Origin: Bradyrhizobium sp. CCBAU 53338
Lineage (GTDB): Bacteria; Pseudomonadota; Alphaproteobacteria; Rhizobiales; Xanthobacteraceae
Direction: 5' to 3'
DNA length: 64,000 bases
Assembly (NCBI RefSeq): GCF_015291665.1
Contig: NZ_CP030048.1
Span: forward strand, 6,669,501 to 6,733,500
The stretch's first letter is position 1. The number at the start of each line of letters is the position of its first letter. Below the pieces are notes generated by a model. It was not told the origin of the DNA and did no database searches. It saw only the letters and a list, made by a program, of their open reading frames with translations. Positions 7,305-43,779 of the stretch are shown in pieces. The position numbers were made by a program, and so were the translations under genes.

Positions 7305-9434
7305 TCAGTGTCCCATCCCCGGCATCACCTCGCCGTTATAGATGTCCGGGTTCTTGGGGCCCTCCACATGAAGCACACCGAGCAAACCCCGCTCCATGCG
7401 AGCGAGTGCGTGATCGACGAGCGTGTAGTTGCCGGGCACGTCGAGCTTGAACTCCGTGATGGCCGCACCGCCCGGCGGCACTGAGACCGTCTGAATTCCT
7501 TCGAGCGGAGCCGTGGTCATGCCGCCCAGATTGTAGACTTTATCGAAGATCTCGCCGATGACGTGGAAGGACGATGTGTAGTTCGGACCTCCGACGCCGA
7601 AGAAGATCCTGACCGTATCGCCGACCTTGGCCTGGAGCGGATGTAGCTTGGTGAGCGCGCCGACGGAGCCATTGAATACGAAATATTCGGGCCGCTCGTT
7701 GAGGAGCTTGTCGACGCTGAACTCGGCGCTGCCGTGCCGACCGAAGGCGATGTCGGAATAGATCTCGCCCTGCATGACGTAGAACTCATGGTCGACGGGC
7801 GGCAGTCCGCCTTCCGGCTCGACCAGAATGAGGCCATACATGCCGTTGGCGATGTGCTCGGCGACCATCGGCGTGGCGCAGTGATAGACGAAGAGACCCG
7901 GCACCAGCGCCTTCCAGGTCATCGATTTCTCGCCGCCCGGGTCGACCTGCAGCGCGGCCGCGCCGCCGCCCGGACCGGTCGCTGCATGGAAGTCGACGGA
8001 ATGGATCATGGCGCTATCCGCCGAGTTCTTCAGATGGATGTCGATGGTGTCGCCGACACGTACCCGGATGAAGGGGCCCGGCACTTTGCCGTTGAACGTC
8101 CAGTACCCGAACGTGGTGCCTTCGGCGAGTCTGCCTTCGACCTCGACGCTCAACAGATCGACGCGGACTGTCTGGGGATCGCGCTTGCCGATCGGAGGCG
8201 GCAGATCGCTGGGCTCGCGCGAGATGTCGGCCTCAACGACAGTTTGCGGAGACGGTCTCGGCGTGACGATGAACTGGCCTTCCATGCCCGCCAGGCGATG
8301 TCCGGGGACGCTACAGTAGTAGGTGAAATCGCCGGACTTGCTGGCTCTGAATGCGATGGTCGTGCTCGCGCCCTTGCCGGTGACGCGCGGCGATTTAGTA
8401 TCCTGGTCGGGAAAGACGATGTCGTGCTCGGCGCCTTCGCCGTTGATTAGCGTGAGCTGGACCACCTGACCTTCGGAAGCCGTGAGTACGGGGTTGACCT
8501 TGCCCTCGATCGCGCCGCCCACGCCGATATAGACCATGCGTCCTTCGGCGATGCCGGACCGAAGCGTGTATCTTGCATCGGCAATGTAACCGATGTCGGC
8601 GCCGGTTGCGCTCTGCGGCCGGGTCGGGGCTGGCGCGCCAGCCGGCGACGCTGCCGGCGCCGGTTGCGCCTGGGCGGCCGGTGTCGCAGCGGCGCTCTGG
8701 CCGGCGGCCGATGCCGCCAAGTAGGCGATGACGTCCGCCCGGTCATGATCCGTCTTGAGGCCGGGAAAGGGCATCTTGTTGCCGGGCACGAGCTTCTGCG
8801 GATCGTCGAGGTACCGGTCGAGCGTCGGACGATCCCAGGTGAGATCGGACTGCTTCATCGCCGGTGAGTAGTTGTACCCCGCCTCGGTACCAGACTTCCG
8901 GCCGACGACACCGGCGAGCGAGGGACCCAGCATGCTCTTCCCCGCATCCAGCGAATGGCACGCCTGACATTTGCGGAAGACCAGTCGACCGGCTGCAGCA
9001 TCACCAGCACCTGCTGCCGGGACAGCTGAGGCTGCCGTCGGGGACTTGGAAGCCCACGCGGCCTGGCCACTCGTCGTCGGTGCTGGCGCGGGAGCCATCT
9101 GCGCCATGTCGTGGGCAACCTGAGGCTGTTTGGACTGCTCGGTCTCTCGGGTAGCAGCGTTCTGCTGCGAGGCGTTCTGCTGCGAGGCGGTCTGCTCGGT
9201 GGCCGCGGAAGTCGAGGATGGACCGGGCTGCGGCTCGCCGTTCGTTCCTCGAGCCGACTGCCCCGACGGCGCGTTGTGCGCCATCTGATGACTGTCGGAA
9301 GTCGTTTGGTTCTGCGGCTTGGCACCATCCGCGGAGTAGAGCACTTCGCCGAGCCAGAAGCCGCCGACGATCAGAACCAGCCCGATCAGGAGGATCGACC
9401 AGCGGCGCAGCGTCTCGGCGGCAGTGTCCCACAT
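7305..9434 (-). CDS. nirK: Membrane-anchored copper nitrite reductase fused to cytochrome c and cupredoxin domains
   Basis: A 709-residue protein that reduces nitrite to NO in the periplasm. In order it has an N-terminal membrane anchor (residues 12-32); a Gln/Ser/Ala/Pro-rich linker to about 140; a class I cytochrome c domain (CQACH near 156, Met ligand in GNKMPF); a Pro/Ala linker; a plastocyanin-like cupredoxin (about 285-392; His in GAEHD and the C/H/M set in YYCSVPGHRLAGM); and a two-domain NirK (about 400-709). NirK ligands are intact: HSVDFH (type 1 His, catalytic Asp, type 2 His), YHC, HIANGM, FHVIGE and VDHAL. Start ATG 9434 is preceded by GGAGG; the upstream GTG has no ribosome site. 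Single fusions of NirK to cytochrome c or cupredoxin are known, but both together at the N-terminus are unusual. It is the last large gene of the oxidase/cytochrome operon. Confidence 0.93.
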   Translation of the reverse strand: MWDTAAETLRRWSILLIGLVLIVGGFWLGEVLYSADGAKPQNQTTSDSHQMAHNAPSGQSARGTNGEPQPGPSSTSAATEQTASQQNASQQNAATRETEQSKQPQVAHDMAQMAPAPAPTTSGQAAWASKSPTAASAVPAAGAGDAAAGRLVFRKCQACHSLDAGKSMLGPSLAGVVGRKSGTEAGYNYSPAMKQSDLTWDRPTLDRYLDDPQKLVPGNKMPFPGLKTDHDRADVIAYLAASAAGQSAAATPAAQAQPAPAASPAGAPAPTRPQSATGADIGYIADARYTLRSGIAEGRMVYIGVGGAIEGKVNPVLTASEGQVVQLTLINGEGAEHDIVFPDQDTKSPRVTGKGASTTIAFRASKSGDFTYYCSVPGHRLAGMEGQFIVTPRPSPQTVVEADISREPSDLPPPIGKRDPQTVRVDLLSVEVEGRLAEGTTFGYWTFNGKVPGPFIRVRVGDTIDIHLKNSADSAMIHSVDFHAATGPGGGAAALQVDPGGEKSMTWKALVPGLFVYHCATPMVAEHIANGMYGLILVEPEGGLPPVDHEFYVMQGEIYSDIAFGRHGSAEFSVDKLLNERPEYFVFNGSVGALTKLHPLQAKVGDTVRIFFGVGGPNYTSSFHVIGEIFDKVYNLGGMTTAPLEGIQTVSVPPGGAAITEFKLDVPGNYTLVDHALARMERGLLGVLHVEGPKNPDIYNGEVMPGMGH

Positions 9435-9479
9435 CGAATTGTCCTCCAGTTTCACTCTTCGCTGTTCTGGCGTTCCAGA

Positions 9480-10295
9480 TCAGTCGGTGGCCTTGACGAT
9501 CTCCGGCGGCTGCGAGGCATAGTAGGCGGCGGCTCCGTCGATCTCTTGGGGGGTCATGGCGCGGGCGATATTGCGCATCTGCTGGCTGATGTCGTTGGTG
9601 CGCTGCCCAGATGCGAAGGCCTGAAGCTGGGCCTTCAGGTACGCTTCGGATTGTCCTTCCAACCAGGGACTGCCGACCTTGTTGTCCAGGCTGCCATGAC
9701 ACGATCCGCAGGGGGCGATCCCGCGCACCGGCGCACCGTAGATCACGACGCGAGGTTTCGGGAGTTGCTCCATCGGATGAAACGCGGGTAGCCGCGGCAG
9801 GTAAGCGTAGTATCCGGCCAGGTCAGCGATGTCCTGATCCGACAGGTTGACTGCAAACGGTGACATGATGGCGTTCGTGCGTGCGCCCGCACGGAAGTCG
9901 AGAAGCTCCTTGTAGATCACGCTCGCATACTGACCCGCGAGGTTCGGCGAGTCGGCCCGGCTGATGCCGGTCGGCCCATGGCAGATGGCGCAGCGTTGGG
10001 CAAGCGTCGCGCCGCGTCCGATCGACTCCTGTGTCGAATGCGCGAGCGTCGTCGGCGTCAGGACCACCTCCGTGAGGCGTGGTCCGACCTTTGCTGTTGG
10101 GACAAATGTAGGCGGCTGAGGCAATCCGGCGGCGCTGCAGATCGCGTCCCAGAGGCTTGCGAACTTCAATTCCGTCTGAGCGTAGGGTAATACGATGAAG
10201 CCACCGATTGCTGTCAGCACGAAGAAGCCGGCGGCTATGCCGACGCCGGCCGCAAAGTAGGAATTCCTGAACGTGAAGAGCTCGCGGACGCTCAT
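9480..10295 (-). CDS. Membrane-anchored dihaem cytochrome c, c4 family
   Basis: A 271-residue protein with an N-terminal transmembrane anchor (residues 14-36) and two c-type haem sites, CAICHG and CGSCHG, in the repeated c4 arrangement (domains end in FAVNLSDQDIADLAGYYA and MTPQEIDGAAAYYAS). It probably passes electrons to the adjacent oxidase or to the haem domain of NirK. The ATG at 10295 overlaps the stop of the oxidase subunit I gene by one base (TGATG). It lies 45 bases upstream of nirK. Confidence 0.85.
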   Translation of the reverse strand: MSVRELFTFRNSYFAAGVGIAAGFFVLTAIGGFIVLPYAQTELKFASLWDAICSAAGLPQPPTFVPTAKVGPRLTEVVLTPTTLAHSTQESIGRGATLAQRCAICHGPTGISRADSPNLAGQYASVIYKELLDFRAGARTNAIMSPFAVNLSDQDIADLAGYYAYLPRLPAFHPMEQLPKPRVVIYGAPVRGIAPCGSCHGSLDNKVGSPWLEGQSEAYLKAQLQAFASGQRTNDISQQMRNIARAMTPQEIDGAAAYYASQPPEIVKATD

Positions 10296-11917
10296 CACTG
10301 CGCTCCTACATATATCGCAGGAACGGAGGTGTCCTGGCGGGCGGCGAGCGTCAGGATCGGATAGCCGTAATTCGTGACTGTGAGGCCAATCATCAGCGCC
10401 ACCCAGATCGCGTGGCTGTTGAGCGCGAGCGGCACCGAACGAACCGGATGGACGGGCAGACTGAAGCGGTACGCTCCTGCATCCGTCGCCGGCTGGGCAT
10501 GGGCGCGCGCCAGGATAAACAGAAACAACAAGCCCGAGATCAGCAGGATCAAGGCACCGCCGGCCGACATGCTGACCGATAACGCCTGAGGCGCGATGGC
10601 GGGGTCGGAGTAATCGTAGTAGGCCATGCGGCGCGGCATGCCGAGGATACCGACCCAATGCCATGGAAACGTGGTGACGATCATGCCGATGAACCAAAGC
10701 CAGAGTTGCGCACGCACGAGCCGGATATCCGGCAGCGCTCGTCCCGTCAGATGCGGCCACAAATCATAGGCGATCGCGAAATACATGATGACGATGGCGC
10801 CGCCGAAGATCAGATGAAAATGGCCAGTGATCCACTGCGTGTTGTGGATGGAGGTATCGAGCTGATAGCTCATGTTGATCAAGCCGCCGGCCCCGCCGAA
10901 GCCGAGCATGATGAAAGAGAAGGCCACCGCCAGCATGACCGGATTGTCCCACGGCAGCGCTGCGAGCCAGCCGAACAGGCCGCGGCCGCCGCGCAAGCGC
11001 GCGGCGATCTCGACCGAGGCACAGATGGTGAAGACGGTCAGCAGTGTCGGGAGCGCGACGAGCGCAGTGAAGGCGGAGTGGATGAACTTAAAGCCGGCGC
11101 CGACTTGCGGGTCCTCAAAAGTGTGATGAATCCCGATCGGCATCGCCACCACCAGGAACAGGATGAACGCGATCCGGGCCATCGTGTCGCTGTAGAGCCG
11201 CCCACCGATCGCGCGCGGCACGATCACGTAATAGGCGATATAGCTTGGGATCAGCCAGAAATAGACGATCGCGTGGAGAGTCCAGGAGAAGAACACACGC
11301 GCCAAGCCTGCGTCGATCGTCGTCCTCCAGCCAAGCGCCACCGGAATGATCTGCAGCAGAAGCTCGAGCGCGGCCCCCACTGCGGTCCATGCCCAAAGGT
11401 AGGAGCCGGCAACGTTTGCGAACATCGCGAGCGGCACTGGTTCGTCCGGATGGGCGCGCCGCCAAACGCGCAGGTTGATGGACATCAGGGCGACCCAGAT
11501 CCAAGAGCCGACCACGACGAGCACGACGCCGATGTAGTAGAACGCGTTGCCGATCAGGGGTGGGTAGAAAGTGTACAGCACCGATGCCCGGCCAAGTGCG
11601 ACCGGGATCATCGCCGTGATCGCACCCACGACGATCAGCCAGAATCCCGACCAGGCCCAGCGTACGCCGACCAGCGGCTGCTTGAGAGCCGATTCCGAGA
11701 TGGCATATCCGAAGCCCATTGCGACCAGGGTCGGAAAGACGTAGCCCATGACCGTGCCGTGCGCGGTCAGCGACCGGTAGTACCATTCGGGATTGCTGAT
11801 CCAGGTGTAGAGCGGGCTCCGGACGAACATCTGCCAAGCGCCGAGACACAGCGCGAGGCCGAAAACTACGAAAGCAAGCCAGAAATGCGCAAGGACGAGC
11901 TTTCTATTCTCCAACAC
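10295..11917 (-). CDS. ba3-type (B-family) haem-copper oxidase subunit I
   Basis: A 540-residue, roughly 13-helix protein that closely follows Thermus ba3 subunit I. Conserved features are HAIVYFW (CuB His and the cross-linked Tyr four residues later), IHHTFEDP (CuB His pair), GGRGLFGWLAALPWDNP, and HNTQWITGHFH (haem a3 and haem b ligands). The active-site Tyr is kept, which favours O2 reduction over a dedicated NO reductase, in which this Tyr is usually lost. Thermus ba3 itself has weak NO reductase activity. It starts at GTG 11917 (or the adjacent TTG) and overlaps the subunit II gene. Confidence 0.9.
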   Translation of the reverse strand: MLENRKLVLAHFWLAFVVFGLALCLGAWQMFVRSPLYTWISNPEWYYRSLTAHGTVMGYVFPTLVAMGFGYAISESALKQPLVGVRWAWSGFWLIVVGAITAMIPVALGRASVLYTFYPPLIGNAFYYIGVVLVVVGSWIWVALMSINLRVWRRAHPDEPVPLAMFANVAGSYLWAWTAVGAALELLLQIIPVALGWRTTIDAGLARVFFSWTLHAIVYFWLIPSYIAYYVIVPRAIGGRLYSDTMARIAFILFLVVAMPIGIHHTFEDPQVGAGFKFIHSAFTALVALPTLLTVFTICASVEIAARLRGGRGLFGWLAALPWDNPVMLAVAFSFIMLGFGGAGGLINMSYQLDTSIHNTQWITGHFHLIFGGAIVIMYFAIAYDLWPHLTGRALPDIRLVRAQLWLWFIGMIVTTFPWHWVGILGMPRRMAYYDYSDPAIAPQALSVSMSAGGALILLISGLLFLFILARAHAQPATDAGAYRFSLPVHPVRSVPLALNSHAIWVALMIGLTVTNYGYPILTLAARQDTSVPAIYVGAQ

Positions 11918-12467
11918 AGCTCAGCCTCCCGCCGTTTTTCGCCCGATCGGCGAATGCCGCCTTGTCCACGACTTTGACCTTGCCCCACATACCTTCATGA
12001 CCGAAGCTGCAGAACTCCTGGCAGGGCATCAGGTAATCGCCCGTCTTCTCGAAGCGCATGTACTGCTCGGAGACATAGCCCGGCACCAGCATGGTATTGA
12101 CGTTGGTGCCCTGGATCAGAATGCCGTGAACGACGTCGGCGCTGGTGGCCCGTAGCGTGATCGGTGTTTGCGCCGGCACGAGGATGCAAGCCGGCGTGAA
12201 GGAGTATTGCTGACCGATCGCGCGCACCGTCACGGCCCCGCTTGGTTCCAGCACACTGCCGAGATTGGATTCGACGAATTCTCCCGAAAGGTGCAGCCGG
12301 GCGGGATCGATGGTTTCCACGCGAGCCTGCGGCATGGTCGCTTGGTGGATGCCCGCGAAGGCTGCCAGCAGCGCGAGCACGACGATAATCGCGATCGACA
12401 CCTTCGCCCAGCGCTTCTCGGTCCGTTCGGCGACTTCGGCACCGCGATGGTCGTCCTGCACCGTCAT
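11904..12467 (-). CDS. ba3-type oxidase subunit II with CuA centre
   Basis: A 187-residue protein with one N-terminal membrane helix (VSIAIIVVLALLAAFAGI) and a periplasmic cupredoxin domain. The complete CuA site is visible: the upstream His in DVVHGI and CQEFCSFGHEGM, i.e. C-x-E-x-C-x3-H-x2-M. It accepts electrons from a soluble or anchored cytochrome c. The ATG at 12467 sits in an ATGA overlap with the small upstream gene; the longer open frame upstream overlaps that gene and is not needed. Confidence 0.9.
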   Translation of the reverse strand: MTVQDDHRGAEVAERTEKRWAKVSIAIIVVLALLAAFAGIHQATMPQARVETIDPARLHLSGEFVESNLGSVLEPSGAVTVRAIGQQYSFTPACILVPAQTPITLRATSADVVHGILIQGTNVNTMLVPGYVSEQYMRFEKTGDYLMPCQEFCSFGHEGMWGKVKVVDKAAFADRAKNGGRLSCVGE

Positions 12468-12643
12468 TGCAACGCTCCGCGGGGCAGAAAGACGAGCAGA
12501 TAGAATGCGAACCACATCGCAATGACACAGGCCGTCGCGATGCCAGCCACCGCCAATGCTCCGCCCGGACCTCTTGCCACAATTCGATCAACTGAGTCGT
12601 CGGCGGGAGCATTGGCGTCCGGGTGCGGATTGGAGTTGAGCAT
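12464..12643 (-). CDS. Small single-helix membrane protein, ba3 oxidase subunit IIa-like
   Basis: A 59-residue protein with a polar N-terminus and one transmembrane helix (LAVAGIATACVIAMWFAFYL) ending FLPRGALQ. Its size, topology and position directly upstream of subunit II (ATGA overlap) match the accessory subunit IIa of ba3-type oxidases. The sequence itself is too short for a firm family call. Confidence 0.6.
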   Translation of the reverse strand: MLNSNPHPDANAPADDSVDRIVARGPGGALAVAGIATACVIAMWFAFYLLVFLPRGALQ

Positions 12644-12656
12644 GTCCGTTCTGTTC

Positions 12657-13907
12657 TCAGTTGAGTGGTGCCGAGCGCAATTCATTCGCTTCGCGGGCGC
12701 TGACGGGAGTGCCGCGATTGCCCCAGGACGTGCGAATGTAGGTCACAACGGACGCAACCTCGTTGTCCGAGAGTTGGCCTGCGAAGGGCGGCATGCCGTA
12801 GGGACGCGGATTGCCTTCGGTGCCCGGAGGATAGCCGCCGTTGAGCACCATGCGGATCGGATTGACGGCCGACTCCATCTCGATTGACTGGTTGCCGGCG
12901 AGCGGCGGCCAATGCGGTGGTTTGCCCTCGCCTTGTGCGCCGTGGCAGGTCGCGCATTTCCCGTCATAAACGGTCTTGCCGAGGCTCATGAGCAAGCTGC
13001 TCTCGGTTGACGGCAAGGTCGATGCCGCTGACGCTCTCGTTGGTGTCGGCTCGGCGATGCTCTTGAGATAGACCGCCATAGCCTTGGTATCTTCGTCCGT
13101 CAGATACTGCAGGCTGTTGTAGACGACCTCGGCCATGGGACCGTACACCACGCCTCGCGCCGAGACGCCGGTTTTCAGGAGGTCCGTGATATCCTTGATG
13201 CTCCAGTCCCCCAAACCGGCCTCCCGGTTTGACGTCAGGGATGGGGCGTACCAGTTCTGCATGGGTATCAGGCCGCCCTTGAAGGCTTCCGATTGGGAGG
13301 TGCCGCCCAGCGCGTTGATCGGCGAATGGCACATGCCGCAATGGCCAAGTCCTTCGACCAGATAAGCGCCGCGATTCCATTCGGCGGATTTGTTCGGATC
13401 GGCTATGTATTCGCCTTCGTTAAAGTACAACGTTCGCCAGCCCAGGATCAGCTGGCGGTTGTTGTAGGGGAAGCGGAGGTCGTGCTCCCGGTTCTTCTGG
13501 TTCACCGCCGGGATGGATTTGAGGTAAGCGAAGATCGCGTCGCTGTCTTCGCGCGTAATCTTGGTGTACGAGGCGAAAGGCATCGCCGGATACATCAGCC
13601 CGCCATCGGGAAAGCGGCCGTAGTGCATGGCCTTATAGAAGTCTTCGGCGGTCCATTTGCCGATTCCGGTATCGCGGTCGGGTGTAATGTTGGATGAAAA
13701 GAGCGTGCCGAATGGCGTCGGCATCGCTCGTCCGCCGCCGAAAATCCGTCCCTCCGGCGCGGTGTGACAGGCGATGCAGTCCCCGGCGCGCGCCAGGTAC
13801 TCGCCTCTCGCCGCGACACTGTTGCCGCTGGACCTCTGCTGCGCCTCAGCCGTGCAGCCGACGAACCAAATCAACAAAGCCATAAGGATTCGTGAGCGCG
13901 ATGGCAT
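12657..13907 (-). CDS. Trihaem cytochrome c, dehydrogenase cytochrome-subunit type
   Basis: A 416-residue exported protein (signal peptide ending near TAEAQ) with three haem sites: CIACH, CGMCH and CATCH. The layout and length match the membrane-associated cytochrome subunit of alcohol/gluconate dehydrogenases, but no catalytic dehydrogenase subunit is nearby. Here it more likely acts as an electron-transfer partner for the ba3 oxidase and NirK. ATG 13907 has GAGGAGACGGAG upstream. It lies 10 bases after the upstream cytochrome gene and 13 before subunit IIa. Confidence 0.85.
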   Translation of the reverse strand: MPSRSRILMALLIWFVGCTAEAQQRSSGNSVAARGEYLARAGDCIACHTAPEGRIFGGGRAMPTPFGTLFSSNITPDRDTGIGKWTAEDFYKAMHYGRFPDGGLMYPAMPFASYTKITREDSDAIFAYLKSIPAVNQKNREHDLRFPYNNRQLILGWRTLYFNEGEYIADPNKSAEWNRGAYLVEGLGHCGMCHSPINALGGTSQSEAFKGGLIPMQNWYAPSLTSNREAGLGDWSIKDITDLLKTGVSARGVVYGPMAEVVYNSLQYLTDEDTKAMAVYLKSIAEPTPTRASAASTLPSTESSLLMSLGKTVYDGKCATCHGAQGEGKPPHWPPLAGNQSIEMESAVNPIRMVLNGGYPPGTEGNPRPYGMPPFAGQLSDNEVASVVTYIRTSWGNRGTPVSAREANELRSAPLN

Positions 13908-13917
13908 CTCCGTCTCC

Positions 13918-14628
13918 TCAATCCGGTTCGCTACCGCAGGCGAAGGGCAGCACATAGGTCCCCTTCGGCGCTGGAGCGATGCTCACCGGGGCTGGACGAG
14001 CTGCAAGCCAAGCCGCCACCGCAGTGACGTCCGCCTCAGTCAGGCGCGACGCGACTTGTTGCATGCAGTCCGGCGCCTTGGCAGTACGCGTCCCGTACCG
14101 CCAGGCTCCGAGTTGTGCGCTGATGTAGTTGGGGCGCAATCCCAACAAGCCGGGAATGCCGGGCTCCATTCCGGTCAAAGCCGGTCCGTGGCAACTTCCG
14201 CACGCTGGGATCTGTCGAACGGGATCGCCTCGAGTGACCAGAGTTTGGCCATGCCGAAGCACGGCCTCGCTGACGTCGCTCGGAGCAGGCGGCGGAAGCG
14301 GCGGATGCTGTTCCGCGAAATAGTCGGCCATCTCCTGCAAGTACGGATCAGTCAGGAATTCGAGCAGGTAGTTCATTGGCGGGTATTTCCGCCGGCCGTT
14401 CTTGAAGGCGAGGAGCTGATTGAAAAGATACCCGGAGGGCTTGCCGGAGAGCCGAGGAAAATAGACGTCGTTCGTGCCCTGTCCCTGGTTGCCATGGCAC
14501 GGAGTGCACGCTTCCACACGGGCCGCCATCGTATCCGGCGGTCCGCCAGGCGTTTGAGCGAAAACGGGCAAAGCCAGGGAAAACCCCAGTCCCACCCCGG
14601 CGATGGCACTTCGCAGCTGCACGCGCAT
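13918..14628 (-). CDS. Exported dihaem cytochrome c, c4 family; first gene of the oxidase-nirK operon
   Basis: A 236-residue protein with a signal peptide (cleaved near VFAQT) and two haem motifs, CTPCHG and CGSCHG, each followed by the c4-type segment (LSGKPSGYLFNQLLAFKNGR; LRPNYISAQLGAWRYGTR). ATG 14628 is preferred over an upstream TTG, which lies too near a putative regulator box at 14691. Counting this gene, the operon encodes eight c-type haems. Confidence 0.8.
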   Translation of the reverse strand: MRVQLRSAIAGVGLGFSLALPVFAQTPGGPPDTMAARVEACTPCHGNQGQGTNDVYFPRLSGKPSGYLFNQLLAFKNGRRKYPPMNYLLEFLTDPYLQEMADYFAEQHPPLPPPAPSDVSEAVLRHGQTLVTRGDPVRQIPACGSCHGPALTGMEPGIPGLLGLRPNYISAQLGAWRYGTRTAKAPDCMQQVASRLTEADVTAVAAWLAARPAPVSIAPAPKGTYVLPFACGSEPD

Positions 14629-14690
14629 CCCCAATGCTGCGCAAACGAGCGGGCTTAACTCGATCCGCAAGCTATTGTTCCATTAAGGAA

Positions 14691-14704
14691 CTGTCCGACG
14701 TCAA
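14691..14704 (-). promoter_or_regulatory. Possible FNR/Nnr-type box upstream of the cytochrome-oxidase-nirK operon
   Basis: On the minus strand the site reads TTGAC-GTCG-GACAG. It matches TTG-N8-CA but lacks the final A of the second half-site. It is centred about 70 bases before ATG 14628, a sensible distance for an activator site. An imperfect match makes this tentative. Confidence 0.3.
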
Positions 14705-27454: not shown

Positions 27455-27468
27455 TTGATCCAAATCAA
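27455..27468. promoter_or_regulatory. Perfect FNR/FixK-type box
   Basis: TTGAT-CCAA-ATCAA is an exact match to the FNR/FixK palindrome. It sits between the end of the SulP gene and the 52-residue gene at 27263-27421. Read leftward it would activate that small gene; read rightward there is no plus-strand gene to drive. Confidence 0.7.
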
Positions 27469-34403: not shown

Positions 34404-34796
34404 CTATTGCTGGGTCAGCTTCACCGGAGCCTTGTCGAAAGTGTGCAGATACGCGATCAAGTCCTTGATCTTTTGCTCGTCCTTGATCCCGGCGAAAGCC
34501 ATCTTGGTTCCGGGAACCTTGGCCTTCGGGTCCTTGATATACTCCGAGAACGTCGCCTCGTCCCAGGTGAGGCCCGACTTCTTGTTCGCGTCGGAATAGT
34601 TGTAGCCCTCGACTGATCCGGCCTTGCGTCCGATCAACCCGTTGAGCACGGGACCCACGGCGTTCTTGGCGCTATCGCCGACCTGATGACACGCCTTGCA
34701 GACAGCAAATGCCTTTTCACCGGCAGCCGCGTCCTGGGCGCTCGCCTGCCCAAATCCGGCAGCGAGGAACAGGGCCACAAATGCAATTCTCTTCAT
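34404..34796 (-). CDS. Soluble class I cytochrome c (c550/c2-like)
   Basis: A 130-residue periplasmic cytochrome with a signal peptide (MKRIAFVALFLAAGFGQASA), haem site CKACHQVG, a Met ligand in GTKMAFAG and a C-terminal IAYLHTFD helix. This is a likely electron donor to NosZ or to the fused NirK. It lies 35 bases after nosX on the same strand and may be part of the nos transcript. The haem domain fused to NirK is clearly related (same SVEGYNYSDAN-like and LTWDEATFSEYIKDP segments). Confidence 0.88.
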   Translation of the reverse strand: MKRIAFVALFLAAGFGQASAQDAAAGEKAFAVCKACHQVGDSAKNAVGPVLNGLIGRKAGSVEGYNYSDANKKSGLTWDEATFSEYIKDPKAKVPGTKMAFAGIKDEQKIKDLIAYLHTFDKAPVKLTQQ

Positions 34797-34831
34797 CCAG
34801 TTCTCCTTGCTTCAGTTTCAACGTCAAACTG

Positions 34832-35824
34832 TCACGCCACGAGTTCCGATACCACCCCCGCAGTATCGATCAGGTGGACCCGTTCGATCTCTAACTGCGG
34901 CAGCAGAGATCTGATCCGCGGTTCAGACATCAGGCTTAACGCGGTCGAGAGCGCGTCCGCGGCGGTGGCGCTGCGGGCCACGGTCGTGACGCTCTTATAA
35001 AGGTGGGCGCAGGCGCCGGTCGCCGGGTTGAACAGATGATTGAACCGACCCGTGGGATCGAAGCGGAAGCCATAGGCGCCAGAGGTAGAGACGGCGCGGT
35101 CAATGATCGGAAGGGTCGCTTGCATCTGGCCGACGATTTCGGGATCGGCGACGCCGACCTCCCAAGGCTGGCCGTCGGGACGCGCCCCGATTGCTCGCGT
35201 CTCGCCCATGTCGACGAGACTTTGCGTGATGCCTTGCGATCGCAGCAGCTCAACGACCTTGTCCGTCACGTAGCCCTGAGCGATGCCGTTGAGGGTGATG
35301 CGGGTGCCCCGTGGCATTGCGATCCGGTCGCGGCTGACCGACAGACGATCCCAGCCAACTCGGGCGAGCGCCGTCTCGACGGCAGCTTGGGATGGCCCGG
35401 AAGGATCGGCATCGGTCTTCGAGAAATGGTCCGCATAGAGCTCCCAGAGCGGCTGGACTGTCGGGTCGAACATCCCGCCGGTCAGCCTGGCGTAACGCTT
35501 CGAGATCGCGAGAAGATCGACCAGCTCGGCGGCAGGATCGACCAAGACACCGGTCCGGTTCAACTCGACCAATGTCGAATCGCTTCGGTAGAGGCTGAAC
35601 AGGCCTTCCAATCGGCGCGCCTCCGCGCAGGCCACGGAAATCAAGCGCTCCGCCTCGGCTCTTACGGAATGATGAATCTTCATCGTCGCCGTCGCTCCCA
35701 GCATCGTGCCGCGCCAGACCACGATCTCCGCATCTGAGGTTGTTGCTGGGGACAGCGGAGAGAGCGCGAAGCCAGCCGTTGCTGCACTGATTGTGATGAA
35801 TCGTCGTCGTGAAACCATTTGCAT
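34832..35824 (-). CDS. nosX: NosX, ApbE-like FAD:protein FMN transferase
   Basis: A 330-residue protein with a twin-arginine-type leader (VSRRRFITISAATAGFALSP). The ApbE pattern is visible: LGATATMKIH, LFSLYRSDSTLVELNRTG, MFDPTVQPLWELY, ITLNGIAQGYVTDKVVELL and the Thr/Ala-rich segment SATAADALSTALSLM. It attaches FMN to NosR in the periplasm. It is the last canonical gene of the nos operon, 13 bases after nosL. Confidence 0.9.
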   Translation of the reverse strand: MQMVSRRRFITISAATAGFALSPLSPATTSDAEIVVWRGTMLGATATMKIHHSVRAEAERLISVACAEARRLEGLFSLYRSDSTLVELNRTGVLVDPAAELVDLLAISKRYARLTGGMFDPTVQPLWELYADHFSKTDADPSGPSQAAVETALARVGWDRLSVSRDRIAMPRGTRITLNGIAQGYVTDKVVELLRSQGITQSLVDMGETRAIGARPDGQPWEVGVADPEIVGQMQATLPIIDRAVSTSGAYGFRFDPTGRFNHLFNPATGACAHLYKSVTTVARSATAADALSTALSLMSEPRIRSLLPQLEIERVHLIDTAGVVSELVA

Positions 35825-35837
35825 GATGGCATCCTTC

Positions 35838-36389
35838 TCAGTCGGCCGGTCCGCGCACGATGGCGCCGTCTTTCGGTCCTGTCCCTTCGCCTTCCGAATC
35901 TAGGACGTAATCGCGCGGTACCTCCGCGAAGCCGACAATGCGTCCGCCGTTCTCGGCCACGAACTTCTCTGCCGCGCCGCGGTCCGAGAACGGAACGGCC
36001 TCATTACCTCCCATGCCTCCCTTCGCGCGGCTGGCGATGACGAACAGGGCTTTCCTTGCCTCAACCCAATTGTCCGGCCCCGGCTTGTCCCAGCTCGGCG
36101 CCTTGCCCATGTCGGACACATAGATCGCCTGAATGTCTTTTGGCTCGTCCGGCAACATCGTGAACGCGATCGTATCGCGCACTGAGGAGAACCAGACCGG
36201 CTCGATCAGACTCGCGATGAAGATGTGCCCCTTCGGTCCCGGATGCTCGAGCACGTTCATGCCGCAGTAGTGCCCGATGTCTTCGGCGGTCATCCTATGG
36301 GGCGGCGGAGGGGTCGCGGCCTGCTTCTCCCAGCAGCCGCCAAGCGCGACCGGCAGCACCAGAGCGAACGCGAGGGCAGTTCGCCTCAT
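35838..36389 (-). CDS. nosL: NosL copper-binding lipoprotein
   Basis: A 183-residue lipoprotein. Its signal peptide ends in the lipobox VALGGC, and the mature domain contains GHYCGMNVLEHPGPKGHIFI, the Cys-x-Met copper site. It delivers Cu(I) for NosZ maturation on the periplasmic side. ATG 36389 lies in an ATGA overlap with nosY. About 30 residues at the C-terminus (SEGEGTGPKDGAIVRG) extend past the core domain. Confidence 0.9.
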   Translation of the reverse strand: MRRTALAFALVLPVALGGCWEKQAATPPPPHRMTAEDIGHYCGMNVLEHPGPKGHIFIASLIEPVWFSSVRDTIAFTMLPDEPKDIQAIYVSDMGKAPSWDKPGPDNWVEARKALFVIASRAKGGMGGNEAVPFSDRGAAEKFVAENGGRIVGFAEVPRDYVLDSEGEGTGPKDGAIVRGPAD

Positions 36390-37213
36390 AGCTCCCTCCT
36401 CGAGAAGGCGAGCGCAGCCAGTCCGAGAGGCACGGCGGTCCAGCAGATCAGGACGGCGAGGAGGACCGGCACCGTGAGGGAGGTACTTTGCGCCAAACCG
36501 GCCATGCCGGCGAAAGTGCTGACATTGGCGAACCCGGTCAGGTTGATCAGGCGGTAGGCGTCGGTCGGATTCGCCAGAAGCATCGCATTCAGCGCGGTGG
36601 CGGAGATGCTGCGGCCCTGATCGAGCGCAAGCACGCCCAGAAGTGCCATGTCGTAGATCAGGACTAGCAACAGCCACAGCCCGATGCAGATGCCGGCCGC
36701 CGTGCTGCGGTCGCGCACCAGGGCGCTGACGAGATAGCCGATCGCGACGAACGCTGCGCCGAGCAGCACGGAAGATCCGACCATCGCCGCGAAGGCGAGC
36801 AGGCTGTCCGAGTCCACCCGGGTGCCAGTCGCCGCCAGCGCGCCGACGGCAAGCCCGTAACCGAGGCAGGTCGCAAAGGCGAGCACCGCGAGGTGCCCCA
36901 CGAATTTGCCGAGCAGCACCTGCCATCGGGCGACGGGGTAGCTGAGCAACAGGAGCATGGTGCCGCGCTCCATGTCGCCGACGATGGCGTCGTGCGAGAT
37001 CAGAAGCGCGATCAGCGGAACGAGGAAGATCGTCAGGCTGGAAAGGCTGACGATCACGACATCGAGTGCGCGTACGCCGACGGTGCCGGTCGGGGCGCTG
37101 CCCAGGAAAGTCAGCGACAGTGCGAGGGCGGCGAGCAGGAGCGTCGCGGCGAGCACCCAGCGATTGCGGACGGCCTGGTGGATTTCCTTGGTCGCGATGA
37201 TCAGCACGTTCAC
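36386..37213 (-). CDS. nosY: NosY, membrane component of the NosDFY transporter
   Basis: A 275-residue, six-helix protein of the ABC-2 permease type. It begins VNVLIIATKEIHQAVRNRWV and has HDAIVGDMERGTMLLLLSYP, the conserved NosY motif. GTG 37213 overlaps the nosF stop (GTGA), which decides the start; the open frame continues upstream inside nosF but is not used. It works with NosF and NosD to supply material for the CuZ site. Confidence 0.92.
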   Translation of the reverse strand: MNVLIIATKEIHQAVRNRWVLAATLLLAALALSLTFLGSAPTGTVGVRALDVVIVSLSSLTIFLVPLIALLISHDAIVGDMERGTMLLLLSYPVARWQVLLGKFVGHLAVLAFATCLGYGLAVGALAATGTRVDSDSLLAFAAMVGSSVLLGAAFVAIGYLVSALVRDRSTAAGICIGLWLLLVLIYDMALLGVLALDQGRSISATALNAMLLANPTDAYRLINLTGFANVSTFAGMAGLAQSTSLTVPVLLAVLICWTAVPLGLAALAFSRREL

Positions 37214-38130
37214 GGCTTTTCCTCCATATTGCGAAGGAAGTGGGCGTATAGCTCGTCGAGAGTCGGCGGAGCGACCTCTACGTCCTCCACCGAATTGCCG
37301 GCGGCCGTCGCGCGGTGCAGAAGTTCGATCTTCCGATCTGATACGGCTTCGATCTCGACGATCCGACCGTTGAGACGCCGGCACGTCGCGTCCGCCGGAA
37401 CCCAAGCCGGCATTTCGCTCTTCGCCAATCCGGCGACCTTGAGGCGGATCCTGGTCGGCAGCCGTGCTAGACGGCGGAGCTCGCCGATCGAGCCGTCCGC
37501 GACCTTGATGCCCCGGTTCATGATGATCACACGGCCGGCCCGTTCCTCAAGCTCAGTCAGCGCATGTGAGGACAGCAGCACGGTCGCGCCGTCGGCCGCG
37601 AGGCGCTCGATCACCTCATAAAAGGTCTGACGTAGCTCCGGATCGAGCCCTGTTGTCGGCTCGTCCAGCAGCAGCACCCGCGGATGCCCGATCAGCGCCT
37701 GTGCAAGTCCAAGCCGTTGGCGCATGCCTTTGGAGTAGGTTCCGACCCGGCGGCCCGTAGCAGGGCCAAGGCCGACGGCGTCGAGCAGGGCCAAGGCCTT
37801 CGCGATCGGCTCACGCTTCAGCTTGGCGTAGAAGGTTTGGGTTTCGCGGGCTGTGAGGGCGGCGTCGAAGGAAACGTTCTCCGGGAGATAGCCGAGCTGT
37901 CGGCGACCGGCGAACTCGCCGGCAGCGGGATTGTCGCCGAGCACCTCGACCGATCCGCTGGTCGGTCGGATGAGGCCCAGCATCAGCTTCATCAGCGTGG
38001 TCTTGCCGGCGCCGTTGTGGCCAATAAGGGCCACTAATTCGCCAGCCTCCAACTGGAAGGAGGCGCCGCAGACGGCCTTCACTAGGCCGTACTCCTTGGT
38101 GACGTCGCTGACGCGTACCGTGCTGGTCAT
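37210..38130 (-). CDS. nosF: NosF, ATPase of the NosDFY transporter
   Basis: A 306-residue ABC ATPase with Walker A GHNGAGKTT, signature YSKGMRQRLGLAQAL, Walker B VLLLDEPTTGLDP and H-loop SSHAL. A C-terminal regulatory domain of about 90 residues follows. It starts at ATG 38130 in an ATGA overlap with nosD. Confidence 0.92.
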   Translation of the reverse strand: MTSTVRVSDVTKEYGLVKAVCGASFQLEAGELVALIGHNGAGKTTLMKLMLGLIRPTSGSVEVLGDNPAAGEFAGRRQLGYLPENVSFDAALTARETQTFYAKLKREPIAKALALLDAVGLGPATGRRVGTYSKGMRQRLGLAQALIGHPRVLLLDEPTTGLDPELRQTFYEVIERLAADGATVLLSSHALTELEERAGRVIIMNRGIKVADGSIGELRRLARLPTRIRLKVAGLAKSEMPAWVPADATCRRLNGRIVEIEAVSDRKIELLHRATAAGNSVEDVEVAPPTLDELYAHFLRNMEEKP

Positions 38131-39512
38131 CGCGCCTCCGCGGCCGTGCGGCGCTTTGGCGGCGCCATCAGCGGATGGCTGTCGACCACGCCTCCCGGCA
38201 GCAACGCCGGAAACTGCGCTTGCGCCCAGCGGATCACCTGGACGGCGGGACTGTTGATAAGAACCTTGGCCGCCGGCGCGGTCCAAAGCACGTGGTCGAT
38301 CAGACCATTCGGCCGGTAGGCCGTGTCTGCGACCCCGTCGCCGTTGAGATCGAAGGCCGGATTGTCGCTCCAGTAGTTGCCGCGGCCGCCGTTCGACCAA
38401 TCCAGATGGCGGGTGCCGACATACTTCACCTGATTGGCATTGTTGACGAAGGCATTGCCTGTGATCCGGTTGCCCTCGGAGCCGGCCGTGAAGTGCACGC
38501 CGATCTCGCACCCTTCGAACCAGTTGCGCTCGATGCGGTTCTTGTTGGTGTTGTAGATGAACACGCACTTCTCGGGGCCGATCCGTTCGCCTCGAGCGAC
38601 TTCGAGGGAACCCGCCACCGTTGGTGGCACGCCTTCGTCGGTGGCGCGATTGTCCGACGTAGCCCAGCGCTCCGCGGGCTGCGGCCCGCCGATGACGGTA
38701 TTGCCGGATATGTCGGACCCGTTGGTCGCGTTGAAGAGAATGCCACGGTCGCGATCGTGATCCGAGACGTTGTCGCGCACGACGAGGTTCTTGGAGAACA
38801 TCAACGCGTAGCCGATGATATTGTCCTTCGAGACATTGCCGATGATCTCGCCGTCATTGGTGTACATGTAATGGACGGCAAAACGCAGATCGCGGAAGCG
38901 ATTGCCGCTGAAGACGTTGTTGCGGCTGGTAATCGCGAAGATGCCGTCGCGCCCATACCGGAAATCGTTGTCGACGACCTTGGCTCCCGGTGCATTCCAG
39001 ACGGTCACCCCGTTGCCGGTTTGACTCATCGGTGCCTGGCGCAGGCCGATGATGCTGTTGTGGCGCGCGAGCGAGTCGGGGGCGCCGTGCAGATAGATGC
39101 CGAAGAGATTGTCCTGGAGCCGATTGTCCTCTACGACGGCGCCCCGCGCCGACTGCTCGACGAAGACCCCCGAATCCATGCCTTCGAGCGCGCGTCCAGA
39201 TCCACGAATGTCGAGCCTACGGACCACCGCGCCAGGAGCCGAAATGGTGATCACACTACCCTTGCCGGAGCCATCGACCACTGCGCCATCGGCTCCCGAG
39301 AGCATGATCCGATGGGCGATGCGCAGCGGACCGTGGTAGGTACCTGCCGCGAGCAAAATCTCGTCGCCGTCGGCGGCAGCATCGAGAATGGACTGGAGGT
39401 CGTTAACCTCGGGCGTGACCGAAAGCTTCTCCGACGCCGCCGCGTGCGCGCCAACGCTGGCGGCCAAGAGAGCCGCCAGCGCCGTGACCGCAAGACGTCG
39501 CGCGCACCGCAT
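38127..39512 (-). CDS. nosD: NosD periplasmic maturation factor
   Basis: A 461-residue protein with a signal peptide and a right-handed parallel beta-helix built of repeated NxFxxN-type turns (VDNDFRYGRDGIFAITSRNN, FSGNRFRDLRFAVHYMYTND, IERNWFEGCEIGVHFTAGSE). It docks with NosL/NosFY to build the CuZ site of NosZ. ATG 39512 lies two bases after the nosZ stop. Confidence 0.92.
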   Translation of the reverse strand: MRCARRLAVTALAALLAASVGAHAAASEKLSVTPEVNDLQSILDAAADGDEILLAAGTYHGPLRIAHRIMLSGADGAVVDGSGKGSVITISAPGAVVRRLDIRGSGRALEGMDSGVFVEQSARGAVVEDNRLQDNLFGIYLHGAPDSLARHNSIIGLRQAPMSQTGNGVTVWNAPGAKVVDNDFRYGRDGIFAITSRNNVFSGNRFRDLRFAVHYMYTNDGEIIGNVSKDNIIGYALMFSKNLVVRDNVSDHDRDRGILFNATNGSDISGNTVIGGPQPAERWATSDNRATDEGVPPTVAGSLEVARGERIGPEKCVFIYNTNKNRIERNWFEGCEIGVHFTAGSEGNRITGNAFVNNANQVKYVGTRHLDWSNGGRGNYWSDNPAFDLNGDGVADTAYRPNGLIDHVLWTAPAAKVLINSPAVQVIRWAQAQFPALLPGGVVDSHPLMAPPKRRTAAEAR

Positions 39513-39514
39513 GG

Positions 39515-41467
39515 TCAGACGTTCTGCGGCGACACCAGCATGCGCCCGCGCATCTCCATGTGCATGGCGTGGCAGAACCAGGTGCAGAAGTACCAATAGA
39601 CGCCCGGCTTGTCGGCCACGAATGTCACCGACGAGGTCTGCTGCGGCCCGATCTCCATGTTGATGCCGTAGTTGACGATGCAGAAGCCGTGGGTGAGGTC
39701 CTCGACGTCATCGATGTTGGTCACGTAGACGGTCACCTCGTCGCCCTGCTTGACGTCGAATTTCTCGAGCGCGTAGGCAGGCGCGGCCGAATACATGTAG
39801 ACGCGCACCTTGTTGCCGTCTCGGATCACCTTGGCGTCGCTTTCGAGCGTGACGCCGTCCGCCTTGGCCTGTTTGACCGCGTCCGCGAACATCGGATCGT
39901 CGCGCTTGTAGATGCTGGTGACCTTGCCCTCCAGCTTGGAGCGATGCACGATCACGGCATCATGTGGCTCGGCGAAGCTCGGTCCGTCGTGCACGAGCTT
40001 CATCTGATCGCCCGAGATGTCGATCAACTGGTCATTCTCGGGTTTGAGCGGGCCGACATTAATGAAGCGGTCCTTTGAGAACTTGTTGAGTGAGATGAGC
40101 CACTTGCCGTCGGCTTCCTTGGTCTCGCCCATCGAGGAATGATTGTGGCCCGGCTGGTAGTGGACGTCGAGCTTCTGGATGATTGGGTTGACCTTCTCGC
40201 CCTTGAACGCGCGCTTCGCCGTCTCGATATTCCACTTCGCGACCTGGCTGTCGAGAAAGAGCGTCGTGTAGGCATTGCCCTTGCCGTCGAACGCAGTGTG
40301 CAGCGGCCCGAGACCAAGTTCCGGTTCCGCGACCACGGTGTCACGCGGCTTGATCTTGTCGTCGAACAGGTCGTCGAACTTGCGGACGTCGAACACCGAG
40401 ACTGTCGGCGACAGCTTGCCGTTGGCGACGACGTGAATGCCGTCTGGCGCGGTATTGATACCGTGCGGGCTGTTGGGAATGGGAACGTAGCGGGTGTAGG
40501 GCGATCCGTGCTTGCCGTCGAGCACCGGCACCCCGTTCATCTCTTTGAAGTCGCCCTTCTTGACTGCGTCCTCGATACGCTTGAGGTTGAAGATGACGAT
40601 CCAGTCCGTCTCGCTCGCGGTCATCTCAGCCAGCGTGACGCCCTTCTCAGAATTGTAGCAGGTCGAGAACGCGTACTTGCCCTGATAATCGGCATCGGTG
40701 TTGTCGAGGTTGCCGTCAACGATCACCTGCCAGGCGACCTTCATCGTGTCGCCGTCAACGGCCGAGAACATCGACCAGTATTTGGTCTTGTCGTCGAGCA
40801 CCTTGCCGTCGTTCGGCAGGGGCACCTCGTACTCGCCGTTGCAGAACACATAACCGGTGCGCGGGAATTTCTGTGGGCGCATGCCGTGGATCGTGTACTG
40901 GTTCGGCAGCTCGACGATCTTGTCGCACTTCATGATGTCGGTGCGGATGCGGGCTAAGCGGGTGTTGGCCTTGTCGTTGATGAAGATGTAGCGCCCGTCG
41001 TAGGTGCCGTCGGTGAACGACATGTGCGGATGATGGCAGTCGCCGTTCTGCCAGACCCCGTTCAAGCGCCCCTTCAAGCGGTCGCGCGTCTCCTGGGTCA
41101 TTCCATCGTTCAGGATCTTCAGCGACTCGTTCGTCAGGCCCCAGCCGGTCGCACTGTCGCGGTTGAAGACAGGAATGCGCATCAATTCTCGCATCGAGGG
41201 CATGCCAATGATACGGACTTCGCCGGTCTGGCCGCTGGAGAAGAAGACGTAGTAGTCGTCGAGCTCGCCGGGCGCGACCTCGATCTTCTGGCCGCCTGCG
41301 CGCGCAGGTGCCTGGGCCTGAGCCGCAGCAGGCTCCGGCTCGACGGCTCTGCCGAGACCGAGGCCGCCTGCCAAGCCGGCGGCGCCGATCGCGGCGGTCC
41401 CGACCACCTGTCGTCGGCTGACGGCATTCTTGTCTTCGTCTCGATTCTTGTCCTCGTCTCGGGCCAT
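39515..41467 (-). CDS. nosZ: Nitrous oxide reductase, clade I
   Basis: A 650-residue periplasmic enzyme that reduces N2O to N2. It has a twin-arginine leader ([21 protein letters not shown]), a seven-bladed propeller with CuZ His ligands ([52 protein letters not shown]), and a C-terminal cupredoxin with Cu[13 protein letters not shown] near residues 627-638. The Tat leader places it in clade I. ATG 41467 has AAGGAG seven bases upstream. The earlier ATG at 41488, in an ATGA overlap with nosR, has no ribosome site. Confidence 0.96.
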
Positions 41468-41484
41468 CGTTCGTCTCCTTGCTG

Positions 41485-43779
41485 TCATGAGGAAGTGGAT
41501 GGATCGGCGCCTGTTCCTGTAGGGACGGGCTTTCCGGCGTGGGTGATGACGGTTTTCGGACCCTTGCCGCCCGATCGCATCGTCGGCGAGGACATGGCCG
41601 CAAACTTCTCACGCTTGAGCCGCACCTGGATCATGTGCGGGCAGCGATGGTCGTCATAATAGAGTTCCTGGCAGTGCATGCAGTAGATGCACTCGTTCAC
41701 GTTGATGTGTCCCTCGGGATGGATCGATTGCACTGGGCATTCCTTGGCACAGCGCTGGCAAGGCGAACCGCACTCCTGCCAACGTCGAAGCCATTCGAAC
41801 GTCCGCATGCGGCCGGGGATCGCGAGCGCGGCGCCGAGCGGACAGAGATAGCGGCAGAAGAACCGTTCAATGAACAAGCCAGCCACCAACAGCGCAACGG
41901 CGTAGAGCACGAACGGCCAGCTTCTTGCAAACTTCAGGATAATCGCGGTCTTGAATGGTTCGACTTCGGCGAACCGCTCGGCCATATCGACCGAGTACAG
42001 CGAGAGCCCGAACAGCCCTAGGAAGATGATGTATTTGATAGGCCACAGCCGCTCATGCAGACCCCATGGCACCGTGATCTGCGGCACCTTCAGCCATTTT
42101 GCGACTGTATTCGTGAGCTCCTGCAAGGCGCCGAACGGGCAGAGCCAACCGCAGAACGGGCCGCGGCCCCAGAACAGTAGGCCACCGGCTACCGCCGCCC
42201 AGAGAATGAAGATCAGCGGTGCCGCAAGAAAGAACTCCCAGTGGAAGCCAGTTACCAGGGAGTTGGTGAACGTCAGGACATTCACCACGGAGAGCTGGGC
42301 GTTGGCGTACCAGCCGAGCCAAACCAGCACGAATGCCAGATAGGCGCGGCGTACCCAAGTGTAGAAGACCGGTCGTCGCACCAGCACGTTCTGGAAGAAG
42401 AAAATAACGGTTAGAATAGCGAGGGCGAGGGCGGTGACCGCGACAGAGGCGGCCTGCGAGCGCCAGATACGCATCCAAAGAGGCTCCTCCTCGGCATTCG
42501 CCGGCGCGCCCGGCTGCGGAGCAACGGCGGCTGGCGCCGCCGCGGTCGCGGGAATGGTCACCGCGCGCTGCTCGCGACGGATGTACTGCTCGGGAAGGTC
42601 GTAGTTGAGATCGAATGTGAGGAAAGCCTTGTCGCGCCCGACGGTGGCTCTCTGGACGAGGAGTTTCAATTCCCACGGTTGCGTCGGATCGAGTGTGAAC
42701 TCAGGCGGCGTGACGAACAGCCCGATCTCCTTGAACTCCGGTGCGCCCGCGGCCGCCAGATTCCCCAGGCGCGTATGATTCCGGTCGCGGAAGCGGGTGC
42801 TGGATCCTTCCTGCAGGATTTCTATGCGATCGAAGATGCCGCCCCGCACGTAGGCCGAGCCTTTGAACGAGTAGATGCCGTTGCCGGCCACCAAGATCGC
42901 CTGCTGGCCCGGTTGCAGTCGTTCCTTGAGCCTTGCGTAGGCGTCATCGCCGAGCAGGCTGCGTCCGATGGTGGGCACACTGACGAGAGCGGCGTAGAGG
43001 TCGATGAAGGTATCGGACGGGTCGCCAGGCTCGGAGTTTTGAGCGGCCGCAGCATTGCCGGATTTGGCGAAGGCGTCGTTCACGTCCCCGATGCTCAAGT
43101 GCAGGTGGCGGACCGACCCGTCTCCTGCGAGAGTTTGCCAGTCGCGGACCTCGCTTTTCTCGAGATTGATCGTCTTGGTGACCGGAGGCAATGCGGCAGC
43201 GGCCGCAGCGGCATCGCTGCCCCCGATCCGCCCGGACCGGATGAGCTTCGATGCGGAGCGCACGATGCTGTCGCTCATGACCAGAACGGTCACGGTCGCG
43301 CCGCTCACGATATCGACCTGCGGCGGCTGCTCGGCGCCACTGGCGACGGGCTTCATGTCCTTGCCAATGAGGCCATTGACGGCTGCGACGATCCGAGCCT
43401 CCGGAATGCCGATCAGAACGATCGGCTCCTTATGATCGACCAGCTTTATGCCGGTGATCACACCCTTGGGGTCGATGCCGACCAGAATGTGGATCGGCTT
43501 CCCCGAATAGCCGACCGAGTTGGCGAAGTCGGAATTGAGATAGACGAAGCCCTGCAGCTGATCGCCGCGGTAGACGGGCGCGATCGGCGGATCGCCCTGT
43601 AGCGGACCAAAACGGTCGGCCTCCGGAAAAAAGTTCGTAGGCGAGGATTTGGGAAGATAGTTGGCCAGGTCGCTGGCCGCTCGAGCCGTTTCGGCCCAGA
43701 GCGCGGTGCAGATTGCGAGCAGGACGGCGAGCACGAAGCTGACTTCGCGTCGCTTCAAGGCGACGAAACTACGGGCCAT
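41485..43779 (-). CDS. nosR: NosR, membrane flavo-iron-sulfur electron donor and regulator for NosZ
   Basis: A 764-residue protein. A signal-like first helix is followed by a periplasmic FMN-binding domain ([19 protein letters not shown] with the Thr for covalent FMN), several membrane helices with CGWLCPFG and CRYLCPLG motifs, and two C-terminal [4Fe-4S] sites ([29 protein letters not shown], roughly 670-710). ATG 43779 is chosen because an FNR-type box at 43899-43912 would place the transcript start near 43864, downstream of the longer in-frame start at 43893. Confidence 0.94.

Follow-up and report, generated by a model that had tools for sequence, protein, structure and literature searches.

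The window, by which we mean the whole stretch of 64,000 nucleotides that was analysed, carries a gene for a four-domain copper nitrite reductase (NirK) at 7305..9434. The coordinates proposed in the initial annotation hold, and the gene lies on the minus strand: the minus-strand frame is open from a GTG at 9455 to the stop at 7305 with no internal stop, and the plus-strand frame starting at 7305 contains five stops. The frame from the GTG encodes 716 amino acids and that from the ATG at 9434 encodes 709. Since GGAGGA adjoins this ATG directly on its 5' side, the ATG is the likely start. Residue numbers are nevertheless counted from GTG 9455 throughout; subtracting 7 gives the numbering of the ATG protein.

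Pfam and NCBIfam profiles matched the protein in the order Cytochrom_C (153-247), Copper-bind (355-397) and TIGR02376, the copper nitrite reductase family (410-711), the last with 344.2 bits against a curated cut-off of 296.3. On the minus strand, a hydrophobic N-terminal helix defined by Kyte-Doolittle hydropathy, which is a probable uncleaved signal anchor (9339..9395, residues 21-39), is followed by linker 1, a tether rich in Ala, Pro, Gln and Ser (9015..9338, residues 40-147), and by a class I cytochrome c domain (8706..9014, residues 148-250; PF00034) with its CQACH motif at 163-167 and a distal Met228. Linker 2 (8592..8705, residues 251-288) is rich in Ala, Pro and Gln and has neither His nor Met. 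It leads into a cupredoxin domain (8256..8591, residues 289-400; PF00127) that aligns with PDB entries 6TFD and 2DV6, and the protein ends with the NirK core (7305..8228, residues 410-716), which scored above the TIGR02376 cut-off and had 6THE as its best PDB match. The intact frame and the profile order thus bear out the earlier reading that a helix, a cytochrome c, a cupredoxin and NirK share one polypeptide, with the cytochrome c and the cupredoxin both N-terminal of the core on Ala/Pro/Gln-rich linkers.

A frameshift or an assembly error separating the domains had been named as one finding that would overturn this reading. The 709 codons run without an internal stop, and an assembly error is argued against because homologues keep the identical domain order and because CxxCH is present in 141 of 142 aligned four-domain rows. 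In a separate alignment of 55 members (A2), some of them fragments, Cytochrom_C and Copper-bind were each recognised in 53 and both Cu-oxidase families in all 55. A PDB sequence search matched no complete four-domain chain. An AlphaFold2 model built with 55 sequences had a mean pLDDT of 50.9, too weak for geometry.

Ligand conservation was read at 18 positions across 142 aligned four-domain proteins, of which 120 are database matches and 22 come from loci. The window protein has all 18 of the haem, copper and catalytic residues checked: C163, C166, H167 and M228 for the haem; H344, C381, H386 and M391 for the type 1 copper (T1Cu) of the cupredoxin; H485, C526, H534 and M539 for the T1Cu of the core; H490, H525 and H682 for the type 2 copper (T2Cu); and D488 (AspCAT), H631 (HisCAT) and I633 (IleCAT) in the active site. 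These site names are the established ones for copper nitrite reductases (CuNiRs). All 18 sites are kept in 137 of the 140 rows that have letters at every site, and the three exceptional rows each miss one copper ligand. As far as ligands go, the haem, T1Cu and T2Cu centres of the window protein are intact, and they are presumably loaded with their cofactors.

These features make the window protein, as judged from its sequence, a member of the published class of 4-domain haem-cupredoxin CuNiRs typified by the enzyme of Bradyrhizobium sp. ORS 375. It has the layout of that class, in which a cytochrome c and a cupredoxin precede the NirK core, as well as its haem, two T1Cu, T2Cu and AspCAT/HisCAT/IleCAT residue sets, and it is 71% identical to the ORS 375 protein (P0093) over 99% of its length. 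The PDB entry 6THE is the core of the ORS 375 enzyme, since it matches P0093 residue for residue over 382-695. The primary paper on this 4-domain BrNiR, cited in PMC10999283, is that of Sasaki et al. (FEBS J 2021, 10.1111/febs.15324). Passages in the literature describe a 4-domain NirK of ORS 375 whose N-terminus bears a tethered cytochrome c and cupredoxin (PMC8301774), state that several Rhizobiales have a four-domain haem-CuNiR plus a two-domain CuNiR, ORS 375 having both (PMC7775769), review the four-domain ORS 375 enzyme (PMC12117333) and place the NirK proteins of ORS 375 and Hyphomicrobium in clade 1e (PMC10999283). The view that known fusions add either a haem domain or a cupredoxin is thus outdated, a NirK with both being in print from ORS 375 in the first three of these sources, and the 71% identity together with 6THE shows that the architecture is not new. 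The gene is accordingly refiled from a supposed new fusion type to a class with published enzymology. A database search for homologues gave 7993 matches among the 8000 candidates with most shared words; among the matches listed (the best 120 of 7993), proteins of B. guangdongense and B. symbiodeficiens were 91% and 87% identical, respectively, and B. betae had two different four-domain NirK proteins (P0008 and P0009).

How the four-domain proteins relate to three-domain enzymes was read from a tree of the cupredoxin-NirK part with 83 rows, six of the 79 loci being omitted. One branch (support 99/95) parts 31 four-domain from 52 three-domain rows, and the window sequence groups with ORS 375, apart from the three-domain enzymes. 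The latter come from Pseudomonadota and Chloroflexota, with four rows from other phyla. For this unrooted tree, a single gain of the haem module would be the simplest reading, with a single loss as the less simple alternative. A recognisable core motif was present in 71 of the 79 loci, 22 of them with CxxCH before the core, and the other 8 had no motif match. Within a sample of 117 Bradyrhizobium genomes drawn from a larger group, four encode a four-domain NirK, that of the window included. The same genome also encodes a two-domain NirK elsewhere (G000:C1:1246904; TIGR02376, 536.9 bits), so that the two enzymes coexist in one genome. Clustering of open reading frames around four-domain genes gave no common neighbours in most loci. 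At two loci (L011 and L023), an NnrS-like gene lies directly 3' of the four-domain nirK.

The hydrophobic stretch at the N-terminus has a mean Kyte-Doolittle value of 2.4 over 19 residues, and AlphaFold2 predicted a helix at residues 2-32 with a block pLDDT of 86-92 over residues 1-30 of its otherwise weak model. In the window protein, no A.A[QSADTE] site occurs within 32 residues of the start of this stretch. We compared potential cleavage sites between 54 dereplicated four-domain and 54 three-domain loci, using equal search spans and three patterns. The four-domain representatives, which include the window protein (P0002), are related by kinship, so their counts are not independent trials; the three-domain sets for cleavage sites and for the His/Met motifs go back to 57 loci, three of them without a cupredoxin motif. 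Depending on the span searched, the strict A.A[QSADTE] pattern was found in 9-12 of 54 four-domain versus 32-35 of 54 three-domain proteins, and plain A.A in 14-23 versus 42-44. The loose pattern [AVSTG].A[QSADTE] gave 14-32 versus 39-45, with the contrast narrowest for this pattern in the widest span (32/54 versus 45/54). Since strict AxA-like sites are rarer in four-domain than in three-domain proteins, an uncleaved anchor is favoured in most four-domain proteins. For the transmembrane anchor claimed in the initial annotation, the hydrophobic helix was thus recovered, whereas its anchoring in the membrane is likely only, being deduced from hydrophobicity and the missing cleavage motif. Tat export by way of an RR pair before the helix was ruled out, as the pair is not conserved (other rows have REW, RDW or GEW).

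Linker 1 of the window protein contains two His/Met clusters, HQMAH (9276..9290, minus strand, residues 56-60) and HDMAQM (9096..9113, minus strand, residues 115-120), the second being the counterpart of HDHMAQ in homologues. A His/Met pair motif was present in linker 1 of 85 of 96 parsed homologues and in linker 2 of none of them; the 96 derive from 120 proteins, the window protein included, of which 11 could not be parsed and 13 more had no helix above threshold. Linker 2 has about a third of the length of linker 1, and the His+Met frequency is therefore the fairer comparison: among the 54 representatives (<90% identity) it was 3.9% for linker 1 against 0.3% for linker 2, with the pair in linker 1 of 47. 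These representatives were chosen after removal of 29 of the 142 rows, partly fragments and partly full-length proteins missed by the patterns or the hydrophobicity threshold. The residues are clustered: 161 of 220 His/Met residues lie no more than three residues from another one, and 1000 permutations within the linkers gave 48 on average and 76 at most. In 70 low-complexity control windows of 80 residues, taken from other open reading frames of the fetched loci and probably including non-genes, the pair occurred in 15, whereas 47 of the 54 linker windows had it. His+Met frequencies differed less, at 2.7% and 4.4%, respectively, and the contrast hence lies in the pairing. A narrower motif was found in 42 of the 54 representatives, where the first haem cysteine follows the cluster at a distance of 36-56 residues in 41 cases and of 65 in one. 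Behind the hydrophobic segment of three-domain loci a His/Met pair was found in 34 of 54, often as AQ-x-H-x-H. Separately, the linker 1 clusters of four proteins (P0066, P0080, P0082 and P0087) have grown into Met-rich or Met/His/Cys-rich runs that resemble copper-binding segments.

The cluster is not universal, and basic activity is unlikely to need it because linker 1 of ORS 375 has none. As the motifs resemble the His-Met clusters described for the N-terminus of CTR1 in a passage of PMC8867124, the tether may by analogy be a flexible copper-binding element that feeds the T1Cu and T2Cu sites or ties activity to copper supply, and the anchor would hold this element at the membrane; we offer this tentatively and regard it as doubtful. 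Among the matches listed in a literature search for His- or Met-rich motifs in CuNiRs, none named a copper-containing nitrite reductase.

The haem domain matched the NF043008 CycA profile with 1e-26, below the full-length cut-off, and shares 49-51% identity with a CycA-like protein encoded within the window (34404-34796). It also matched solved cytochromes c in the PDB, including a cytochrome cy chain (6XKW_Y, 9.1e-22). A haem-domain tree of 36 rows, based on a short alignment with no cytochrome cy row, did not single out a closest free cytochrome or donor. In B. diazoefficiens, CycA is reported to carry electrons from the bc1 complex to NirK (PMC6710368), and a fused relative of CycA would therefore make a sensible built-in donor. 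Another class I cytochrome c encoded in the same genome (L009, G000:C1:1008091-1008462) has a hydrophobic segment at its N-terminus. It resembles CycM and is a possible partner on the bc1 side.

Upstream of nirK, on the same minus strand, lies an oxidase cluster. It comprises a dihaem cytochrome c gene (9480 to about 10304, its start not fixed), ba3-type oxidase subunit I (10295-11917), a CuA-type subunit II (11904-12515), a trihaem cytochrome c (12657-13955) and another dihaem cytochrome c (13918-14670). The gap between the nearest dihaem cytochrome gene and the nirK ATG at 9434 is 45 nt, and no TTG-N8-CAA box was found in it. The best PDB matches of subunit I include 1EHK, a chain named as ba3-type cytochrome c oxidase. 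This subunit also retains the oxygen-reductase H-x3-Y ('LHAIVY'), and the possibility that the cluster encodes a nitric oxide reductase was ruled out on both grounds. Scans for promoters and terminators gave 1 match against 2.1 expected and 7 against 5.6 expected, respectively, not above shuffled sequences, and a tRNA scan gave none.

The same oxidase block, corresponding to window positions 9474-9484 to 14541-14693, occurs without nirK behind it in five Bradyrhizobium genomes. In the 117-genome sample, subunit I is present in 55, the four-domain NirK in 4 and both in 2, namely the genome of the window and G096. In G096, nirK lies on a different contig from the oxidase, and the 1.5 kb examined upstream of it contain no dihaem cytochrome. 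Oxidase genes were also unmatched in the flanks of 22 four-domain loci (E 1e-10; several of these flanks being short) and at three more loci (L119, L120 and L121; 1e-5). The oxidase cluster upstream is hence a feature of this strain and not of the four-domain class, and the neighbourhood was rejected as a clue to the class, being absent from the other four-domain loci searched. Because the same block occurs without nirK and other four-domain loci lack the oxidase, nirK was apparently inserted in this lineage behind an oxidase cluster already in place, whose transcript it probably shares.

Other denitrification functions are encoded both inside and outside the window. About 25 kb from nirK, the region 34404-43893 (minus strand) contains nosR, a TAT-type nosZ, an ApbE-family (NosX-like) gene and the gene for the CycA-like cytochrome c550; the remaining nos genes there were guessed by position. 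The sequence TTGACTTCCGTCAA lies upstream of nosR (43899-43912) and TTGATCCAAATCAA at 27455-27468, both FNR/FixK-type boxes. In the whole window, TTG-N8-CAA occurred 21 times against 10.4 expected, a number that none of 100 shuffles reached. Outside the window, the genome also encodes a haem-copper subunit I of the B family (L162 1402-3123, G000:C1:2219235-2220530) beside a CoxB-like subunit (L153). This subunit I has Gln where oxygen reductases have Tyr (MGHSSQQ), and by the criterion given in PMC8756737 the L162/L153 pair would be an NO reductase of the eNOR type. Of the COX1-family matches in this genome, the other six are oxidases, namely two CtaD, two CyoB, one CcoN and one ba3-type, and the same search found neither cNOR nor qNOR.

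We consider it probable that this member of the published class is an exported and most likely anchored enzyme, whose haem would be fed from the quinol/bc1 branch and whose added domains would serve to localise and tune it. After export, the polypeptide would most likely stay fixed in the inner membrane through its uncleaved N-terminal helix, from which about 110 flexible residues would carry the class I cytochrome c, and then the cupredoxin and the NirK core, in the periplasm, presumably as a trimer. An electron would most likely reach the haem from the quinol/bc1 branch, just as the homologous free cytochrome CycA supplies NirK in B. diazoefficiens, and would go on to the core T1Cu either directly or via the N-terminal T1Cu. 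The electron would then move to the T2Cu, where nitrite would be reduced to NO. Rather than merely speeding up the reaction, the added domains may localise and tune an enzyme that accompanies the ordinary two-domain NirK in the genome.

A bolder version of this route, suggested in the initial annotation, would have electrons run from the membrane through the haem, the N-terminal T1Cu and the core T1Cu to the T2Cu with no diffusible donor; in the form weighed here, it would also bring a kinetic advantage. The ligands kept in all but three complete rows and the probable membrane anchor are in line with it, and so is pulse radiolysis of a Hyphomicrobium enzyme, for which a passage in PMC7201279 suggests the N-terminal copper as the first electron acceptor. 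However, the same source puts the N-terminal and core T1Cu about 24 A apart in Hyphomicrobium crystals, and since a helix by itself does not oxidise quinol, a bc1-type donor would still be required. The review PMC12117333 points both ways: its text states that the extra domains of the ORS 375 enzyme gave no activity gain and might lower efficiency, but a table in it gives 9.38 for the full enzyme against 1.67 for the form without the cytochrome, which would fit a helpful haem and speaks against a role in tuning only. All in all, complete self-sufficiency in electron supply seems possible but less likely than not. That the helix is instead a cleaved signal peptide, leaving a soluble enzyme in which the low-complexity stretch is a mere spacer, we regard as unlikely: the representatives with a strict AxA-like site do include ORS 375 (P0093), and 32 of 54 have a site at the loosest pattern and widest span, but the strict site is absent from 42-45 of 54, the window protein among them, and present in most of the three-domain relatives.

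Quite improbable, in our opinion, is a main role in copper handling or oxygen-linked electron flow with nitrite reduction as a secondary activity. The short same-strand gap to the dihaem cytochrome gene of the oxidase cluster, the missing TTG-N8-CAA box in this gap and the His/Met clusters of the tether would all suit such a role, but the oxidase genes do not accompany nirK at the other four-domain loci searched, subunit I and four-domain NirK rarely meet in the 117 genomes, and the catalytic residues are conserved. The preferred reading thus remains that of a nitrite reductase localised and tuned by its added domains. What our analysis adds to the published descriptions that we found, as far as those passages go, is the single split in the tree, the rarer AxA sites and the His/Met cluster of the tether; of these, the tether motif and the probable anchor merit a specialist's attention.

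Cytochrome cy is built of an anchor, a long tether and a class I haem domain, and the window protein resembles it in its N-terminal hydrophobic helix, long tether and class I cytochrome c. Both cytochrome cy and CycA (cytochrome c550) differ from it in being free electron carriers with no fused catalytic domain. In a literature search for membrane-anchored NirK with cupredoxin, none of the matches listed concerned the four-domain class by its title, but Chloroflexi cases were met. These open reading frames from metagenome-assembled genomes (MAGs), described in PMC8756737, likewise combine cytochrome, cupredoxin and NirK, but with a c551/552-type cytochrome and a cupredoxin described as N-terminal; they come from a few MAGs, and the authors consider a possible assembly artefact. 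The three-domain NirK proteins of Ralstonia pickettii and Pseudoalteromonas (PDB 3ZIY and 2ZOO) also have a cytochrome c fused to the core, but theirs is C-terminal and no cupredoxin is added. The best-aligned stretch is the core only, and the window protein ends with that core, lacking a Ralstonia-type C-terminal haem domain.

The Hyphomicrobium denitrificans three-domain NirK (PDB 2DV6 and 6TFD) aligns with the window protein across both the cupredoxin and the core, and shares its layout with the tree's three-domain rows, among which the Hyphomicrobium sequence itself is not included. It differs in having no haem domain. A further difference concerns His27, which in the Hyphomicrobium enzyme anchors substrate according to a passage of PMC7201279: the aligned position is Ile291 in the window protein and Ile, Val, Leu, Met or Ala in all 142 four-domain rows. 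The closest parallel is BrNiR of ORS 375, which shares the identical domain order, all 18 checked residues and the presence of a two-domain NirK in the genome. Its linker 1, in contrast, has one His and no Met, and thus no His/Met cluster, and behind its helix it has the AxA-like site that the window protein lacks in its strict form.
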